Virus record (IMG/VR): IMGVR_UViG_3300011114_000781
Coordinates: 1 to 21,208 of that record
DNA: 21,208 nt
Strand: one strand, 5' to 3'
From: a virus
Position 1 is the stretch's first letter; each line of letters begins with the position of its first letter. The position numbers were made by a program, and so were the translations under genes. A model generated the notes under the pieces. It was given only the letters and a program-made list of their open reading frames with translations, ran no database searches and had not been told where the DNA came from. Of the stretch, positions 2,800 to 19,773 are shown in pieces.

Positions 2800-3140
2800 G
2801 CTACTTTCCTTTCTAGTTTTTTAGCGTCCATCATAAATCTTTTAGGTTGAAGATTTACTAACCAATCACTTACTGACGGGATAAATCCACAATCTTCCAT
2901 AATATGTTGTTCGCCGATTGTTTTTACTGGTACTTTTTTATTGTCCGAGTTCACAATGTAATCGCCAAACTTTTCAACACACTCCTCAACACCTAATGAG
3001 TGGTGTCGTAATGCTCTGTGTCTAAAATCTGGGTGGTAAGACTTTGTAAAATCAAACCACTTATGGATTGCGATATAATCTTCTATACGGCCTCCATAAC
3101 GATTTACTGTTGCTTGGGCGTGGATTACTGGGGTTGCCAT
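2796..3140 (-). CDS. DUF6915-like conserved phage protein
   Basis: The 114-residue sequence carries a pattern I recognise from a widespread family of phage and prophage proteins of unknown function (I believe DUF6915). It has an H-A at the N-terminus, RYGGRIEDYIAIHKWFDFTK, then DFRHRALRHHSLGVEECVEK, NSDNKKVPVKTIGEQHIMED and CGFIPSVSDWLVNL. The many conserved His residues (H23-like, HRALRHH, EQH) could bind a metal, but no reaction is known. The start overlaps the upstream TAA (TAATG); the end overlaps the next gene as ATGA. The family match is from memory; the name is less certain than the homology. Confidence 0.7.
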   Translation of the reverse strand: MATPVIHAQATVNRYGGRIEDYIAIHKWFDFTKSYHPDFRHRALRHHSLGVEECVEKFGDYIVNSDNKKVPVKTIGEQHIMEDCGFIPSVSDWLVNLQPKRFMMDAKKLERKVA

Positions 3141-3718
3141 TATAGTTCCCCCTCATCATCACTCGATAGTGTTCCGTCATCATAGTTTCTCTCGTAAGTT
3201 TCAACGCTTTCTTGTCCGTCTCTTTCCCAAGTATAATTAAATACATCTAGTTTTACAGTTCCAGTCACACTAAATTCCCCCGCAAAACTTCCGTATTCTT
3301 CCAATGCACCCGTAGAATAAAGTGTATCTTCAAGTACATCTAAAAGATTTTTTTCACTATTTGTTATAGTGTAGAAAACAGAAATCTTTTTTGCTTTCTC
3401 ATTTTCATAAGTGTAAATATTTTTTTTACTTACAAAAAATCTAAAGTCTCGTCTAAAGTCAAAATCTTCTTTTATGACAATTTCTTTTTCTTCATGATTT
3501 GCAAGATAAACATTATCAAAACCACCCTCATCATTACCACCAGAAAATGTTCCAATAATATATTTTACATTATGTCTTATAAAAGTATCTTTTAATTCTT
3601 TTAAGATTTCTTTTACGTATTCTCGTTCTGCTTTTTTTTCTAAAGTTTCTACTTTTTTTCGTGCATCATAATCGTAGCTACTTTTTGTTTTTATGTCTTG
3701 TATAAGCGTCAAGCTCAT
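3140..3718 (-). CDS. First gene of leftward operon, DUF6878-like
   Basis: A 192-residue acidic protein and the promoter-proximal gene of the leftward operon. It starts at an ATG preceded by AAGGAG eight bases upstream. An N-terminal basic helix (residues ~15-45) leads to GTFSGGNDEGGFDNV (about 56-70), and the C-terminal third contains YGSFAGEFSVTGTVKLDV. These two patterns, G-x-G-D-x-G and Y-G-x-F-x-G-E-F followed by a strand, resemble the DUF6878 family found on plasmids and phages; function unknown. The C-terminus is strongly acidic (YDDGTLSSDDEGEL). Family assignment is tentative. Confidence 0.6.
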   Translation of the reverse strand: MSLTLIQDIKTKSSYDYDARKKVETLEKKAEREYVKEILKELKDTFIRHNVKYIIGTFSGGNDEGGFDNVYLANHEEKEIVIKEDFDFRRDFRFFVSKKNIYTYENEKAKKISVFYTITNSEKNLLDVLEDTLYSTGALEEYGSFAGEFSVTGTVKLDVFNYTWERDGQESVETYERNYDDGTLSSDDEGEL

Positions 3719-3772
3719 TTTTTTTTACTCCTTTGTTTGTTTGTGTGATTAAACTCTAGGGCTACTCCTATT

Positions 3773-3932
3773 TTGACGAAATTTCATTCTCGTATTAATC
3801 ACGAATTGACAGTTAATTTATTTGTCAAAAGTTGTCAAAATAAAAATTGACAAAAATATTAAGTCATTGATTTTATTGTCAAATAACTTGTAAAAGTTAT
3901 TTATTGACACTTTTTTAAAATTTCTGTAAGAT
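3773..3932. promoter_or_regulatory. TTGACA cluster with candidate divergent promoters
   Basis: Six exact -35-type hexamers lie within about 105 bases: TTGACA on the plus strand at 3806, 3847 and 3904, and on the minus strand (TGTCAA) at 3823, 3833 and 3877. The best complete promoter is rightward: TTGACA 3904-3909, a 17-base spacer, then TAAGAT 3927-3932. Leftward, the minus TTGACA at 3882-3877 has TATTTT 18 bases on and could drive the 3718-to-1 operon. The alternating orientation could also be an operator array for a repressor recognising TTGACA/TGTCAA half-sites. Confidence 0.5.
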
Positions 3933-3938
3933 TTAGCT

Positions 3939-4006
3939 GTAAAAATTGAGTTCATTCATTTTTACGTCCTTTCTTGGCTAGGGGTAGCTTATTCTGCCCC
4001 TAGTTT
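3939..4006 (+). ncRNA. Candidate small structured RNA (two hairpins)
   Basis: A transcript from the TTGACA-17-TAAGAT promoter would begin near 3939. Exactly there starts a perfect 8-base inverted repeat (GTAAAAAT 3939-3946 / ATTTTTAC 3958-3965). It is followed by a perfect 7-base repeat CTAGGGG 3978-3984 / CCCCTAG 3997-4003 and then TTTATC. No open frame follows for over 600 bases. This fits a short regulatory RNA, but the U-run after the second stem is short, so the 3' end is a guess. Confidence 0.3.
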
Positions 4007-4081
4007 ATCAAGTTCCTTGTTCCGTGATTGTTGGGTATTGTTTCACTTGACATTTTAATTTTTATAAAATAATTGTGTGCT

Positions 4082-4141
4082 GTTAATATTTGCTATTAAC
4101 GATTCCCGTCAAATGCTAGGGTACTGTCATAGGTACCCTAG
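4082..4141. repeat. Two further inverted repeats in the control region
   Basis: GTTAATA at 4082-4088 pairs perfectly with TATTAAC at 4094-4100 (5-base loop). CTAGGGTAC at 4116-4124 pairs perfectly with GTACCCTAG at 4133-4141 (8-base loop). Neither is followed by a clear U-run, so they are more likely protein-binding sites or RNA structure than terminators. The second shares the CTAGGG word with the stem at 3978-3984 and with a partial copy at 3755-3760. Confidence 0.5.
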
Positions 4142-4162
4142 TTAAAAATCAAGGAAAACGAT

Positions 4163-4175
4163 ACACGGCTCACGG
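4163..4175. repeat. CACGG heptad repeat, copy 2 of 3
   Basis: ACACGGCTCACGG here is an exact 13-base match to positions 531-543 inside an early gene, with CACGG words spaced 7 bases apart. The same heptad on the opposite strand (CCGTG-TG-CCGTG) occurs at 8678-8689 upstream of the large terminase gene. The element is much richer in GC than its surroundings and is unexplained. Confidence 0.5.
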
Positions 4176-4213
4176 CTCTTGGATAAGTTATTGATTTATA
4201 TGTATTCTTGAAA

Positions 4214-4478
4214 CTAGGAAATTTTAGGAATTTTCGGAAAAAATAAGCTAGGAAACACGCCAATTTTCCCAGAAATGTACCCACTAAGGTAGTTTGTATA
4301 CAAAAAAATTTTAAAAAGTATGTGTGGATTTAGGTCAAAAACTAGGAAAAATTGACAAAAATGCCAAATTATCTATATATATCAATGGTTTAATCATTCC
4401 CAGTTTTTTCCTAGATACTGGGAAAAGCCAATAAAATCAACACTTATTTTTTCCCAGTTTTTTGTCATTTCTGGGAAA
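4214..4478. repeat. CTRGGAAA octamer array, origin or operator candidate
   Basis: Eight exact CTRGGAAA octamers lie in 265 bases. Plus-strand copies are at 4214, 4248, 4342, 4418 and 4471; minus-strand copies (TTTCCYAG) are at 4265-4272, 4407-4414 and 4450-4457, with a near copy at 4396-4403. Four of them pair into two inverted repeats, TTCCCAG 4397-4403 / CTGGGAA 4418-4424 and TTCCCAG 4451-4457 / CTGGGAA 4471-4477. These form a 54-base direct repeat, each unit ending AAAGYCAATAAAAT. Repeated short sites in a gene-free AT-rich stretch suit a replication origin (iterons) or a repressor/activator array. Confidence 0.55.
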
Positions 4479-4570
4479 AGTCAATAAAATAGCCATTTAT
4501 TGATTTTTAGTCAACAAAATTAGTAAACAAATGATTACTAAACGGAAACAAATGTATGCAAAAAAATTTT
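4295..4570. repeat. Flanking 18-base direct repeat
   Basis: TGTATACAAAAAAATTTT at 4295-4312 recurs as TGTATGCAAAAAAATTTT at 4553-4570 (17 of 18 identical), 258 bases apart. Both are followed by an A-run and both precede a TTTAGG word. The first copy is part of a perfect 12-base palindrome, TTTGTATACAAA at 4293-4304. The second lies just upstream of the terminase small subunit gene, where TATATA at 4585-4590 is a possible -10 without a good -35. Part of the similarity is A/T-run composition. Confidence 0.4.
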
Positions 4571-4622
4571 TAAAAAAATATTTGTATATAGATTACTTTA
4601 GGGAAAACAGTTAAAATGGTTT

Positions 4623-5135
4623 ATGCCTCAAAAGAAGAATACTTTAAAAACCACTAATGATTTAACACCTAAACAAAGAAAATTTGTTGATATCCTTGTT
4701 GCAAAATGGGGAACAATTACAAAGTCAGATGCGTGTATCGAGGCTGGATATGCAACTAAAGACGGCTCAAAACCATATGAAACTGCAAGTAAGTTAACAA
4801 ACCCAGAATTAAATCCTCATGTTGTTAGATATTTAGAAAAAAGACTATCGCAAGAATTACAAAAATATGAAAAAGATAAATTGCGTTCTTATAAAGTTTT
4901 TGAAAGATTGAGAAATAAAGCTGAAGAAAAAAATCAGTTTAACTCTGCCGTCCAATCAGAATTTCGTATGGGACAATTATCTGGTTTCTATATAGATAAA
5001 AAAGAAATTTCTCATATTGGTTTAGAGGGCATGAGCCGTGAACAGCTAGAAAAAAGATTGTCAGAATTAGAAAATAAATTAGATGAAAACAAAGCGATTA
5101 TTGACATCACGGCTGAAACAGAAATTGTTAAATAG
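4623..5135 (+). CDS. terS: Terminase small subunit
   Basis: This 170-residue protein should recognise phage DNA at the packaging start and hand it to the large subunit. The N-terminal region (about residues 13-65) has the classic pattern LTPKQRKFVDIL, then ITKSDACIEAGYATKDGSKPYETASKL, NPELNPHVVRYLEKRL, matching the Terminase_2-type helix-turn-helix. The middle is helical (oligomerisation) and the C-terminus is charged (REQLEKRLSELENKLDENK). Its length is normal for the family. The ribosome-binding site is weak. Unusually, the large subunit gene lies 3.7 kb downstream, behind a leftward operon; the two are normally adjacent. Confidence 0.85.
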   Translation: MPQKKNTLKTTNDLTPKQRKFVDILVAKWGTITKSDACIEAGYATKDGSKPYETASKLTNPELNPHVVRYLEKRLSQELQKYEKDKLRSYKVFERLRNKAEEKNQFNSAVQSEFRMGQLSGFYIDKKEISHIGLEGMSREQLEKRLSELENKLDENKAIIDITAETEIVK

Positions 5136-5221
5136 TTCTTGGGAAAGTTTTATTCACACTTTTAACAAGGTACACAATAGCCATTTAACAACAAAACTTG
5201 GAATTGTAGCAATTAGAATTA

Positions 5222-5521
5222 ATGACAAAAAGAAAATTGGCGATAAATAAAAAAGCAAAAAGAGAAATAGATAAATTTCCTCTTGTTGAAATTAAGTGGC
5301 TAGACATTACAAGCGATAGTTCATGGCAAGATATAGAGGATTTTTTAAAAACAAAACTTCCTTTGTGTACCACTAAAGGCCATTTATTATCACAATCAAA
5401 AGGCCTAACAAGAGTATTTGGCGACTTTGCCCTAAAGGACGAAAAATCGGGGCAAATTGATGAAATTGCCAATACAACTATTATTCCAAATAGTGTTATT
5501 GTTGAAATTAAAAAAATTTAA
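5222..5521 (+). CDS. Conserved small phage protein of unknown function
   Basis: A 99-residue protein. After a basic N-terminus the pattern PLVEIKWLDITSDSSWQDIEDF, then CTTKGHLLSQSKGLTRVFGD, then IDEIANTTIIPNSVIVEIKKI matches a family of short phage proteins common in environmental viromes: a small beta-rich fold with W-x-D-I and a C-terminal I-P-x-x-V-I-x-I-x-x-I strand. The function is not known. It follows terS by 86 bases with only a weak ribosome-binding site and ends head-on against the leftward operon, the two stop codons overlapping within 5518-5521 and leaving no room for a terminator. Confidence 0.65.
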   Translation: MTKRKLAINKKAKREIDKFPLVEIKWLDITSDSSWQDIEDFLKTKLPLCTTKGHLLSQSKGLTRVFGDFALKDEKSGQIDEIANTTIIPNSVIVEIKKI

Positions 5522-5856
5522 GCAACTAAAAAAATATCAACTATTTTTGTTTTGTCTAAATGTATTTCTATATCACAATCACTAACTAAAAGATTATCAC
5601 TGTCTTTGGTTAATGGTTTTTCTATATTGCATTTATAACTAAAAACCTTGTTAACTTGTCTTAAAAATTCTGGTTTTTTATTATAATCACAAGCATATTC
5701 AATGGGCAATAATGTTATTTCATCATTTATTTTTTTAAAGTATGTTGTGCTATTTTCTATTTCCTTATATTGCCATGCGACTGTCTTACACTTATCAATT
5801 AAGTTAAAAAACCAATCTTCGTTTAAATAGTGTTTAAATGAGGTATGACCCGCCAT
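5518..5856 (-). CDS. Unknown 112-residue protein, last of second leftward operon
   Basis: A 112-residue protein with several Cys (K-C-K-T, Y-A-C-D-Y, Y-K-C-N, S-D-C-D) not arranged as a clear zinc site, and alternating strand-like stretches toward the C-terminus (CDIEIHLDKTKIVDIFLVA). The start at 5854-5856 follows AGGAAG by several bases and lies one base after the upstream stop. No family was recognised. It is the final gene of the leftward run and its stop overlaps the convergent rightward gene. Confidence 0.6.
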   Translation of the reverse strand: MAGHTSFKHYLNEDWFFNLIDKCKTVAWQYKEIENSTTYFKKINDEITLLPIEYACDYNKKPEFLRQVNKVFSYKCNIEKPLTKDSDNLLVSDCDIEIHLDKTKIVDIFLVA

Positions 5857-5857
5857 G

Positions 5858-6118
5858 TTATTTTCTTCCTATCTTTTTTTGCGTTGGTAAGTATCTCTCT
5901 AAATTTAGATTAAAACTATTTGTTTTACTATTGTAATCTAATGAATTTTCATAATTTTCATAAAAATTTATTAAAAATTCTATTGCTTTTGGTATGCTTA
6001 CTGGAACACCACAAGCCGTGTTAGATATTTTAAATAATCTCTCATATACTTTTAAATTTAATGAGAAATTTTTTTGATTTTTTGCTTTGTCTAAATCCCC
6101 AATATGTAGTTTTTTCAT
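5858..6118 (-). CDS. Possible ribbon-helix-helix protein
   Basis: In this 86-residue protein the segment FSLNLKVYERLFKISNTACG followed by VPVSIPKAIEFLINFYENY (about residues 18-57) has the order short strand, helix, turn, helix ending in a hydrophobic pair. This resembles ribbon-helix-helix (CopG/MetJ-like) DNA-binding domains. The remainder is polar and ends basic (TQKKIGRK). If correct it could autoregulate this operon, but the match is by pattern only and no DNA-contacting residue can be confirmed. GAGAGGA precedes the ATG and overlaps the end of the gene upstream. Confidence 0.5.
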   Translation of the reverse strand: MKKLHIGDLDKAKNQKNFSLNLKVYERLFKISNTACGVPVSIPKAIEFLINFYENYENSLDYNSKTNSFNLNLERYLPTQKKIGRK

Positions 6119-6381
6119 TTTTTTATTTCCTCTCTTTCAAAATAAAACCAACTTGAACAATTTGGACAATGTACTGAATTGCAAATGTCATCTTGATTTA
6201 TTTTTTTATTTTTTAATAATTTTTTTATTTCTTTTTGTGTGTACTGTGTGCCTTTAATTTCTTGGAAATTATCATTTTCTGCCCAGTAATCCCCAATAAA
6301 ATTACATTGTTCACATTTCATTAAAGTATTATCAGCAACACAATACCAACCTTGATTAATTGCCTTTTGTGCTAGTTTCAT
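6115..6381 (-). CDS. Zinc-ribbon protein, 88 residues
   Basis: Two CxxC knuckles, C23-E-Q-C26 and C72-P-N-C75, separated by a Lys-rich insert (KEIKKLLKNKKINQ), form a typical zinc ribbon. C14 and C67 are additional cysteines. The aromatic W78-F-Y-F after the second knuckle is a usual end of the ribbon sheet. A nucleic-acid or protein binding role is likely; no specific family. It overlaps the genes on either side by ATGA, and its C-terminal REEIKK is encoded by the ribosome-binding site of the next gene. Confidence 0.65.
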   Translation of the reverse strand: MKLAQKAINQGWYCVADNTLMKCEQCNFIGDYWAENDNFQEIKGTQYTQKEIKKLLKNKKINQDDICNSVHCPNCSSWFYFEREEIKK

Positions 6382-6530
6382 TTTTTAGTCCTTTCTTGTT
6401 TAATTGAATAATATAAATCATCACTCAATTTTATTTTTTTAAATCTATTCATTATTACACCGATTAAACACATAATTACAATAAAATTAAATGGCATTAA
6501 TAAAATAAACCAAAATATTATATCTTTCAT
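6378..6530 (-). CDS. 50-residue single-pass membrane protein
   Basis: A 50-codon frame from the ATG at 6528-6530 to the TGA at 6378-6380 (ATGA with the next gene). Residues 4-27 are strongly hydrophobic (IIFWFILLMPFNFIVIMCLI), followed by the basic NRFKKIKLS and a polar tail, so the N-terminus would face the periplasm and the tail the cytoplasm by the positive-inside rule. GAAAGGA precedes the start. Role unknown. Confidence 0.55.
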   Translation of the reverse strand: MKDIIFWFILLMPFNFIVIMCLIGVIMNRFKKIKLSDDLYYSIKQERTKK

Positions 6531-6701
6531 TTATTTAATCCTTTCAATGTTTGTTATTTCATGGTCTTGCAAATCAATGTCATGTTGTTCAGCAAATTGT
6601 AATTTTAATGTGTCAATATAATCTTTTTTTGATTTTGCCTCATGATTGTTTATGTGAAAACTAACTGTAATTGTGCTTGTATATTCTTTTAACTTAGTCA
6701 T
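6531..6701 (-). CDS. 56-residue unknown protein
   Basis: A 56-codon frame from the ATG at 6699-6701 to the TAA at 6531-6533. AGAAAGGA lies upstream of the start, and the start overlaps the previous stop as ATGA. The product begins with a beta-like stretch (LKEYTSTITVSFHINNHEA) and continues as a charged helix with DIDLQDHEITNIERIK at the end. This resembles short phage proteins with one strand pair and a helix; the function is unknown. Confidence 0.55.
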   Translation of the reverse strand: MTKLKEYTSTITVSFHINNHEAKSKKDYIDTLKLQFAEQHDIDLQDHEITNIERIK

Positions 6702-6823
6702 TTTGTTTTCCTTTCTGTTTTATTTTTTAATAAATTAAAAAACCCTTTGTATTCTTTTGACAAATCTTCATTATATGCAAAATGCCAAAGTTTCTTAATT
6801 TCTTTTAATGTATATTTTTTCAT
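6698..6823 (-). CDS. 41-residue basic peptide
   Basis: A 41-codon frame from the ATG at 6821-6823 to the TGA at 6698-6700, preceded by AGAAAGGA and overlapping the next start as ATGA. The product is a helical basic peptide (KKYTLKEIKKLWHFAYNED) whose last residues, TERKTK, are encoded by the downstream ribosome-binding site. No family recognised. Confidence 0.5.
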   Translation of the reverse strand: MKKYTLKEIKKLWHFAYNEDLSKEYKGFFNLLKNKTERKTK

Positions 6824-7029
6824 TTTTTTATCCTTTCTGTTTGTTTTTCTAATTTCTTCCAACCCAAACTGAAATTATAAAATCCGTCTTTGTCATATTG
6901 GTAATAATATTCAGTTATTAAGTCAGCATAAATTGGAATTGATTTAAGTTTATTATAGGCAGATTTTGGACTTGTTGCCTTTATATCAATTCTAAAATTA
7001 TCTTTTGTTTGAAAAGCATAGGTTTTCAT
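6820..7029 (-). CDS. Unknown 69-residue protein
   Basis: A 69-residue basic protein. The opening KTYAFQTKDNFRIDIKATSPKSAYNKL, split as two strands and a helix, matches a recurring small phage fold in which a hydrophobic-polar hairpin is followed by S-x-x-x-A-Y-x-x-L. The second half is aromatic (YYYQYDKDGFYNFSLGW). The start is one base after the upstream stop, with GAAAGGA upstream. Its TERIKK tail carries the next ribosome-binding site. Confidence 0.6.
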   Translation of the reverse strand: MKTYAFQTKDNFRIDIKATSPKSAYNKLKSIPIYADLITEYYYQYDKDGFYNFSLGWKKLEKQTERIKK

Positions 7030-7030
7030 A

Positions 7031-7207
7031 TCATTGTCCTTTCTTTTTATTCATTAAAACAACATTAACTTCGTTGTCTTGCTTATCAAAATAAACTTTG
7101 ACTTTCTTATCTTTTGCGTTTTCAAAGTCTTTTAATTCTACATAAGACCAATTATTCAAGTCGCTGTTTATGTAGTCTAAATAACTATTGTATGTTTTTG
7201 TTTTCAT
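7031..7207 (-). CDS. 58-residue unknown protein
   Basis: A 58-codon frame from the ATG at 7205-7207 to the TGA at 7031-7033. It lies 23 bases inside the end of the upstream gene, with GAAAGGA about 14 bases before the ATG. The product is charged, with YNSYLDYINSDLNNW at the start and a likely strand pair KKVKVYFD and NEVNVVLM near the end. No family recognised. Confidence 0.5.
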   Translation of the reverse strand: MKTKTYNSYLDYINSDLNNWSYVELKDFENAKDKKVKVYFDKQDNEVNVVLMNKKKGQ

Positions 7208-7394
7208 TGTTTTGTGCTTTCCTTTCTTTTATTTCTTGTTTTATTTTTTTGACTATCTCTGTCCGTGTGTAATCAATATATTTTTTAGTAAAATAATCAT
7301 CATCACTACGAACAGAGGCCAAGACTATACCCGTTAAATGATAGGTAATATTTATAAAATAGTCTTTATATGTAAAATTATATTCTTTAATCAT
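7185..7394 (-). CDS. Unknown 69-residue protein
   Basis: A 69-residue protein whose N-terminal half looks like a beta sheet (KEYNFTYKDYFINITYHL, TGIVLASVRSDDDY). The C-terminal half is a basic amphipathic helix (TRTEIVKKIKQEIKERK). The start at 7392-7394 overlaps the upstream stop at 7391-7393 (ATGA). It overlaps the next gene by 23 bases. The function is unknown. Confidence 0.55.
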   Translation of the reverse strand: MIKEYNFTYKDYFINITYHLTGIVLASVRSDDDYFTKKYIDYTRTEIVKKIKQEIKERKAQNNENKNIQ

Positions 7395-7843
7395 CTGTTT
7401 AAATTAAAGTTTTCAATTTTTTCAAGTCTTTTTGTTTTTTCTTCCTCTGGCAAAGTGTCCCAGTCTTCAGGAAAATTTAGGCCTTGCACATTGTCAAAAA
7501 ATCGTTTTTTCTGTGCATTAACTTTGGCCTTATCCTCTGACTGTGTCATCATGCCAAACATAGCAGAAACCATAGAAACAGTTTTTAAAAAATCTGGCTC
7601 TGGTTTATGTTGTCTTAATAACTGATTAAATTCATCTGGCTTTAATCTGTCCTTTTTGTTTCCGTTATCAATCCAACTTAAATGTTTTGCTGTTGTCACA
7701 GTCCATTGATTTTCCGACACTTTTAAAATGCCGTCAATTTCAAGGGCTACGGGTGTATTATATGAATAAAAAACCTTTAAATTTGGTTTTTCTTGCACAT
7801 AATAACAATTTTTTGTTGTGCGTAGATAGTATTTTTTTGTCAT
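7391..7843 (-). CDS. DUF8033-like domain protein
   Basis: The largest gene of the second leftward operon (150 residues). The N-terminal half has FYSYNTPVALEIDGILKVSE, then QWTVTTAKHLSWI, a pattern (S-Y-x-T-P-V-A, later T-T-x-x-H) shared by many small phage and archaeal-virus proteins; I believe this is the DUF8033 group, of unknown function. The C-terminal half is helical and charged and ends EEEKTKRLEKIENFNLNR. The start follows AGAAAGGA, with tandem hairpins immediately upstream (7873-7915). The family name is from memory. Confidence 0.55.
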   Translation of the reverse strand: MTKKYYLRTTKNCYYVQEKPNLKVFYSYNTPVALEIDGILKVSENQWTVTTAKHLSWIDNGNKKDRLKPDEFNQLLRQHKPEPDFLKTVSMVSAMFGMMTQSEDKAKVNAQKKRFFDNVQGLNFPEDWDTLPEEEKTKRLEKIENFNLNR

Positions 7844-19740: not shown

Positions 19741-19773
19741 ATACTGGGGCGTCTTTACGCCCCAGTATTTTTT
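19741..19773 (+). terminator. Strong intrinsic terminator after the coat gene
   Basis: ATACTGGGGCGT (19741-19752) pairs perfectly over 12 bases with ACGCCCCAGTAT (19757-19768) across a 4-base loop, and is followed by a run of T to 19773. It is the clearest terminator in the window and lies 13 bases after the major capsid gene. Probable function is to set the 3' end of abundant coat mRNA, with partial readthrough to the genes behind it. Confidence 0.9.

Follow-up and report, generated by a model that had tools for sequence, protein, structure and literature searches.

The window analysed here, a viral record of 21,208 bases taken at its full length, carries packaging and head genes related to those of the Pelagibacter phage HTVC023P (74.6 % over two pieces). 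The relatedness encompasses the terminase small and large subunits, the portal and the major head protein, gene order is similar, and the phage is related to those infecting the ocean bacterium SAR11. A gap (3719–4622) separates leftward small genes from the rightward terminase small subunit gene (4623–5135), and a second cluster of leftward genes occupies positions 5518–7843. All genes considered are simple open reading frame (ORF) calls rather than curated annotation, and none of the nine small leftward genes of the window searched in PHROGs received a name. Directly after the major head protein gene, a CTGGGGCGTCTTTACGCCCCAG hairpin with a T-rich tail (19744–19765) has the appearance of a terminator.

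The left part of the gap contains a promoter-like sequence followed by two hairpins (Table 1). An earlier note on this DNA had described a well-formed rightward promoter here, and the sequence is indeed present: TTGACA (3904–3909) and TAAGAT (3927–3932), separated by 17 nt, score 10/12 and rank among the best promoter matches of the 3000–5200 region. Since promoter-like sites are about as numerous there as expected by chance (11 observed vs 10.0), such a match proves nothing by itself and needs other support. At all nine loci that carry the element, the arrangement TTGAC[AT]-17-TAANAT is followed by exactly 6 nt and GTAAAA, while the sequence of the 17-nt spacer varies. The start predicted from the consensus, position 3939, falls on the first base of the perfect 8-base inverted repeat GTAAAAAT (3939–3946)/ATTTTTAC (3958–3965), as the note had proposed, and the RNA would thus possess a promoter of its own with the start at its first base. 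The perfect CTAGGGG (3978–3984)/CCCCTAG (3997–4003) stem was also found, as part of a hairpin that is longer than first described (10 pairs, or up to 12 with two G.U pairs). The 3939–4008 segment folds at −24.8 kcal/mol (z = −5.25), which was equalled by 0/200 shuffles. A search of the whole window against Rfam gave no match at gathering score, and a tRNA search found nothing.

Table 1. Coordinates of the features discussed in the text
Feature	Position	Strand	Remarks
TTGACA/TGTCAA cluster	3806–3882	.	left of the RNA promoter; common to L008 and L011 only
45-codon ORF from the next ATG	3818–3955	−	other frame, overlapping the 8-codon ORF
Sigma-70 type promoter TTGACA-17-TAAGAT of the putative small RNA	3904–3932	+	hexamers and spacing kept in 9/9 loci
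GAAAGGACGTAAAAATG, read as Shine-Dalgarno plus ATG, with 8-codon ORF MNELNFYS	3933–3973	−	alternative reading; peptides vary in nine loci
Predicted small RNA	3939–4008	+	about 62–70 nt in nine loci; from fold and covariance model; 3′ end uncertain
Hairpin 1, GTAAAAAT/ATTTTTAC	3939–3965	+	G.U pairs on + in L009/L011
Unpaired linker GUCCUUUCUU, 10 nt, anti-Shine-Dalgarno	3966–3975	+	core CGUCCUUUC invariant
Hairpin 2, (GG)CUAGGGGUAG..CUGCCCCUAG(UU), with short U-rich tail	3976–4008	+	weak terminator-like end
Promoter-like TTGACA-17-TAATTG of the second module	4047–4075	+	conserved in L007 and L009
Second, paralogous RNA module: hairpin, CCCGTC linker, CTAGGGTAC..GTACCCTAG hairpin	4082–4143	+	R1/R2 models
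Leftward genes with GAAAGGAC/GAAAGGA starts, best predicted targets	6115–7843	−	6115–6381, 7391–7843, 6820–7029

Related loci were gathered by means of the terminase small and large subunits and of patterns of the element itself. The element occurs at nine loci (the window, L007, L003, L008, L004, L009, L011, L131 and L142), which represent eight distinct RNA sequences of one clade. Seven of these loci were found through the terminase, and L131 and L142 through the element's own pattern, so that in the latter two the presence of hairpin 1 or 2 was to some extent imposed by the search. All nine contain both hairpins and the invariant CGTCCTTTC, as well as the invariant, unpaired CGUCCUUUC. The earlier note had tied its reading to the preservation of the stems in relatives; the stems, the promoter and the promoter–hairpin spacing are kept in 9/9 loci, and compensatory changes are present. 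The covariance model R1 built on the element recovers all nine (E <= 1e-10) and, across more than 1 Mb of related loci, no further convincing match; in whole records it finds one copy per genome in 8/14, with no match in the whole record of HTVC023P itself. Pairs are kept in 95.5 % of cells, compared to 42–54 % when the structure is slid along the alignment, and covariation reaches 0.173 vs 0.014–0.068. The compensatory changes of hairpin 2 (GC to UA and AU to GC, in L008 and L131) affect both sides at only two pairs; in L003, hairpin 1 has an all-A/T stem that is kept on both arms. Beyond this clade, a scan of bacterial and archaeal genomes for a host copy gave four scattered hits (Thioalkalivibrio, Saprospiraceae and Chloroflexi), which were taken as chance, and blastn of the region against the phage collection returned nothing. 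A scan of viral contigs for the promoter and hairpin 1 in which the linker was not required returned, besides the known homologues, only ten unrelated loci, none of which fits the model; no viral-contig locus convincingly combined promoter and hairpin 1 without the linker.

The variation among the relatives also bears on the strand. Five core pair positions have variants that form G.U pairs on the plus strand, and none has variants that do so on the minus strand (there is no A.C on the plus strand); if both strands were equally likely, such an outcome would have a chance of 1 in 32. The plus-strand fold is the more stable one in 7/8 distinct sequences and equally stable in L008, and in L142 hairpin 2 is closed by GAAA, a typical RNA tetraloop. 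These three observations favour an RNA made from the plus strand over both a leader on the minus strand and a palindrome in the DNA, and the conserved structure belongs to one strand. The hairpins could in principle be DNA-level palindromes that serve as regulator, replication or packaging sites, as the region is rich in repeats and CTAGGAAA/TTTTCCCAG sites lie just downstream, but the G.U-type changes preserve RNA pairing while breaking DNA palindromes, and the promoter geometry and the unpaired linker are conserved as well, which makes this explanation very improbable. The structure, its conservation, the compensatory changes and the wobbles support the structured small RNA that the earlier note had proposed on the plus strand, and a small RNA at 3939–4008 is, on this evidence, likely.

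To the right of this element lies a second module with the same plan: TTGACA-17-TAATTG, 6 nt, the hairpin GTTAATA..TATTAAC, the linker CCCGTC and the hairpin CTAGGGTAC..GTACCCTAG. At 21.6 bits it ranks second among the R1 matches of the region, and the covariance model R2 finds it in the window, L007 and L009. Compensatory changes are present in L007 and L009, and the opposite strand contains neither a ribosome site nor an ATG. A locus with a terminase small subunit 73 % identical (L189) has, in a similar place, the promoter core, a hairpin, a CUCCUUUU linker and a CTAG hairpin, again with no ATG opposite. The promoter core AATTTTTATAAAATAATC is common to L007, L009 and L189, and recurs less exactly as ATTTTTATAAAATAAT in the window.

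Hairpin 2 has a strong stem but only a short U tail (UUUA/UUUU) for a Rho-independent terminator, and a terminator scan found none. The weak tail and the outcome of the scan would suit a long rightward transcript that has the RNA as its structured 5′ leader and reads into the terminase small subunit gene, with the leader regulating or stabilizing it; this is the gene that has the matching orientation and begins at 4623, 615 nt past the RNA, so the earlier remark that there is no gene for more than 600 bases downstream holds. However, 615 nt is long for a leader, the sequence between the element and the terminase region is unconserved and variable in length, and the second module has its own promoter-like site, so a leader appears rather unlikely.

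The main rival concerns the opposite strand, which reads GAAAGGACGTAAAAATG, the normal gene start of these phages and one that many of their genes use. The element would then be the 5′ hairpin, Shine-Dalgarno sequence (GAAAGGACG) and ATG of a small minus-strand leader peptide or of a type I toxin-like peptide, with the plus-strand RNA, if made, as its cis antisense. Hydrophobic ORFs of 19–20 aa in L004, L007 and L008 are consistent with such a gene, as are CTAG hairpins that unrelated phages have immediately before real ribosome sites. On the other hand, the encoded peptides measure 8, 20, 34, 19, 19, 13, 13, 14 and 25 aa in the nine loci and use another frame in L003 and L142, the alignment reveals no conserved leftward promoter to the right, the wobbles favour the plus strand, and both the second module and L189 share the anatomy with no ATG opposite. 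A leftward gene start is therefore considered unlikely, although it ranks above the other alternatives. A type I toxin–antitoxin pair in particular is not favoured, because no conserved small peptide lies opposite the RNA, frame and length differing among the nine loci.

The earlier note had further proposed that a whole cluster of TTGACA/TGTCAA hexamers drives the RNA. Six such hexamers are indeed found within 104 bp (3806–3909, given as about 105 bases), with TTGACA at 3806, 3847 and 3904 and TGTCAA at 3823, 3833 and 3877; only 0.7 are expected in the whole intergenic region, and five within 105 bp were reached by 0/2,000 dinucleotide shuffles of it. The role assigned to the cluster was not borne out, as the nearest relative, L007, lacks it and nevertheless keeps the single promoter and the RNA, which identifies these two, without the cluster, as the conserved unit. 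The TTGACA sites other than that of the promoter are unconserved and belong to a variable left region, and the 3806–3882 cluster is probably leftward promoter or operator DNA. Both the left flank and the next gene to the left vary among the loci; the flank, with the cluster in L008 and L011 and other sequence in its place in L007, L003 and L004, looks like a recombination boundary.

Taken together, the linker and the adjoining arm of hairpin 1 (CAUUUUUACGUCCUUUCUU) match, as reverse complement, the extended ribosome-binding site AAGAAAGGACGUAAAAAUG that many unrelated, mostly leftward genes of the phages with the RNA have in common. In the window, the duplexes computed for leftward gene starts have a mean energy of −13.7 kcal/mol, with 11/21 at or below −14, vs −7.8 kcal/mol and 0/23 for rightward starts; the other contigs show a bias in the same direction. 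The best predicted target, the gene at 6115–6381, reaches −25.1 kcal/mol, and those at 6820–7029 and 7391–7843 are also among the best. The unpaired seed is thus, by computation, complementary to several mRNAs encoded elsewhere. Shine-Dalgarno sequences are stronger on leftward genes, which accounts for part of the bias. The 16S tail also favours leftward starts, but less so than the RNA does, and Shine-Dalgarno strength as the sole cause was rejected for that reason. Across eight contigs, keeping the A/U arm in its order contributes a further −2.1 kcal/mol at leftward starts (p 9e-13), and rightward starts gain nothing from it. A general scan for an anti-Shine-Dalgarno stretch next to a CTAG hairpin mostly returned apparent ordinary gene starts; as such hairpins also stand immediately before real ribosome sites in phages without any relation to this one, the combination is not specific by itself.

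An RNA of this kind might instead act on host mRNAs, or block ribosome sites in general during host takeover. Any mRNA rich in Shine-Dalgarno sequence could pair with it, and the linker shares UCCUUUCU with the 3′ tail of alphaproteobacterial 16S rRNA. The extended match (the C after GGA, the A-rich spacer and the AUG) nevertheless fits the leftward starts of the phage better than the 16S tail does, at −10.2 kcal/mol vs −7.8 kcal/mol, and AAGGAC starts are lineage-specific, which renders a host-directed role improbable. Among phages with the RNA, 19 protein families have AAGGAC starts (18 if the element's own ORF is set aside), while in relatives without it such starts occur in 1 family vs 42 with other AAGGAx starts (Fisher 7e-5), a comparison in which the family count overstates independence, because RNA and AAGGAC starts co-occur once in descent (one lineage), and in which gene content differs between the two phage groups. 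A C after AAGGA departs from the Shine-Dalgarno optimum, so the spread of AAGGAC over unrelated genes would be unexpected unless it is read, and the RNA is a candidate reader. Alternatively, the RNA may have been born from a lineage habit of gene starts, and against the target model it must be said that an RNA antisense to any one ribosome site would partly fit the others of this phage. That the RNA represses the translation of the phage's own leftward genes is accordingly regarded as plausible, although slightly short of an even chance.

We propose, with a probability of about 0.5, that the element is the first of tandem phage small RNAs and an antisense repressor of translation that docks on the phage's own leftward genes through linker and arm. 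The proposal is based on promoter geometry, strand, structure, conservation, complementarity and the enrichment of matching sites, all of them read from sequence. A host sigma-70 promoter would direct the synthesis of an RNA of ~70 nt from position 3939, consisting of an A/U hairpin, the 10-nt unpaired linker and a strong CUAG hairpin at which the RNA probably ends. The linker would dock on the GAAAGGAC Shine-Dalgarno sequence of own, mainly leftward phage genes, the weak hairpin 1 would open, and its UUUUUA/CAU arm would pair with the A-rich spacer and the AUG. Such pairing may hide the ribosome-binding site and lower the translation of the target gene set, probably at the time when the phage turns to its rightward genes for packaging and structure. 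A transcriptome has been published for the lytic phage HTVC027P, which is of the HTVC023P type and none of whose early genes has a known function (PMC12753301). Since the small leftward genes searched in the window likewise lack named families, repression at the early-to-late transition would be a reasonable setting for the RNA.

A more speculative extension, which we consider doubtful, is that the regulon is defined by the ribosome site AAAGGACRTAAAAAATG on unrelated accessory genes, that a single mirror RNA silences them all, and that RNA and site evolve as lock and key. In relatives, the linkers of RNAs with the same anatomy differ (CUCCUUUU in L189 and CUCCUUUC in the L025 group) and would fit other sites. 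If this holds, an abundant phage group would control a set of its own, mostly unknown genes translationally by means of one ~70-nt RNA, a new gene could join the set merely by carrying the tagged ribosome site, and the RNA would give access to the timing and the mechanism of their shut-off.

Phage antisense RNAs that block translation have been described before. The Sar RNA of P22 lies over a phage ribosome-binding site and blocks its translation, and the c4 RNA of phages P1/P7 covers the ribosome-binding site of a phage mRNA with the same effect (PMC12197685). The RNA of the window resembles both in being phage-encoded and, by prediction, antisense to a phage ribosome-binding site. However, c4 and Sar have one target, in or opposite the same operon, whereas the RNA described here is predicted to have many that share an extended ribosome site; the ORF opposite it is unconserved, matching sites occur in many genes, and it shows no sequence relation to either RNA (no Rfam match). 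Cuckoo/CcsR RNAs are alphaproteobacterial small RNAs that expose anti-Shine-Dalgarno stretches; in Cuckoo RNAs, which follow a DUF1127 gene, CCUCCUCCC is exposed in hairpin loops. The exposed stretch and the host lineage are similar here, but GUCCUUUCUU lies in a linker between hairpins, and in a phage. Trans-acting small RNAs of the DicF and RsaE type combine a C/U-rich unpaired seed against the Shine-Dalgarno sequence with a terminator-like 3′ hairpin. The element shares the short unpaired seed and has a 3′ hairpin that is weakly terminator-like; in contrast, no sequence relation is seen, and its proposed targets are phage genes. Structured RNA candidates of Pelagibacter were likewise predicted computationally, in a related host group, but these are chromosomal, and the word 'phage' is absent from the main text of that paper (PMC2704228). 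In the literature searched, which was of limited coverage, a single phage RNA aimed at the ribosome-site consensus of many own genes was not found. Phage RNAs antisense to ribosome sites are known, as are anti-Shine-Dalgarno small RNAs in Alphaproteobacteria; what is new is the match of linker and arm to an extended ribosome site common to many phage genes, together with the second module (4047–4143).

The second module, L189 and two further sets of elements constitute leads for a wider class. In a distant group (L025, L026, L028, L030, L034 and L036), the other strand carries a hairpin-CUCCUUUC-hairpin arrangement upstream of the terminase gene; the look-alikes in L025/L036 are weaker (E about 0.007) and are leads, not members. 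The same applies to four elements that distant relatives have upstream of their terminase small subunit gene (L233 at 2357, L249 at 2363, L251 at 583 and L252 at 2703, minus strand). In these, a UCCUUUC element (UCCUUUCGUUA) precedes a long AGCACATA..TATGTGCT hairpin with seven Ts after it; they are possibly further small RNAs with a canonical terminator. HTVC023P contains a strong GGAATAGGCATT..AATGCCTATTCC hairpin in the gap before its terminase small subunit gene (L002, about 6970–7010), which could be an analogous structured RNA. In unrelated phages (L151–L153, L157 and comparable viral contigs), CTAGGG..CCCTAG hairpins stand directly upstream of apparent Shine-Dalgarno sites of ordinary genes.

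Upstream of the terminase small subunit gene, the window also contains iteron-like CTAGGAAA and TTTTCCCAG/CTGGGAAAA repeats (4211–4480), which are kept in close relatives and appear as ACTAGGAAA repeats in HTVC023P (L002, about 7170–7265); they are possible packaging, origin or regulator sites. Repeated TGTATACAAAAAAATTTT/TGTATGCAAAAAAATTTT blocks (4295–4310 and 4553–4595), largely kept in relatives, frame the repeats before the terminase gene. Short tandem ACACGG/CTCACGG units (4160–4180) vary in copy number among the relatives (e.g. ACACGGAACACGGAACACGG in L009).
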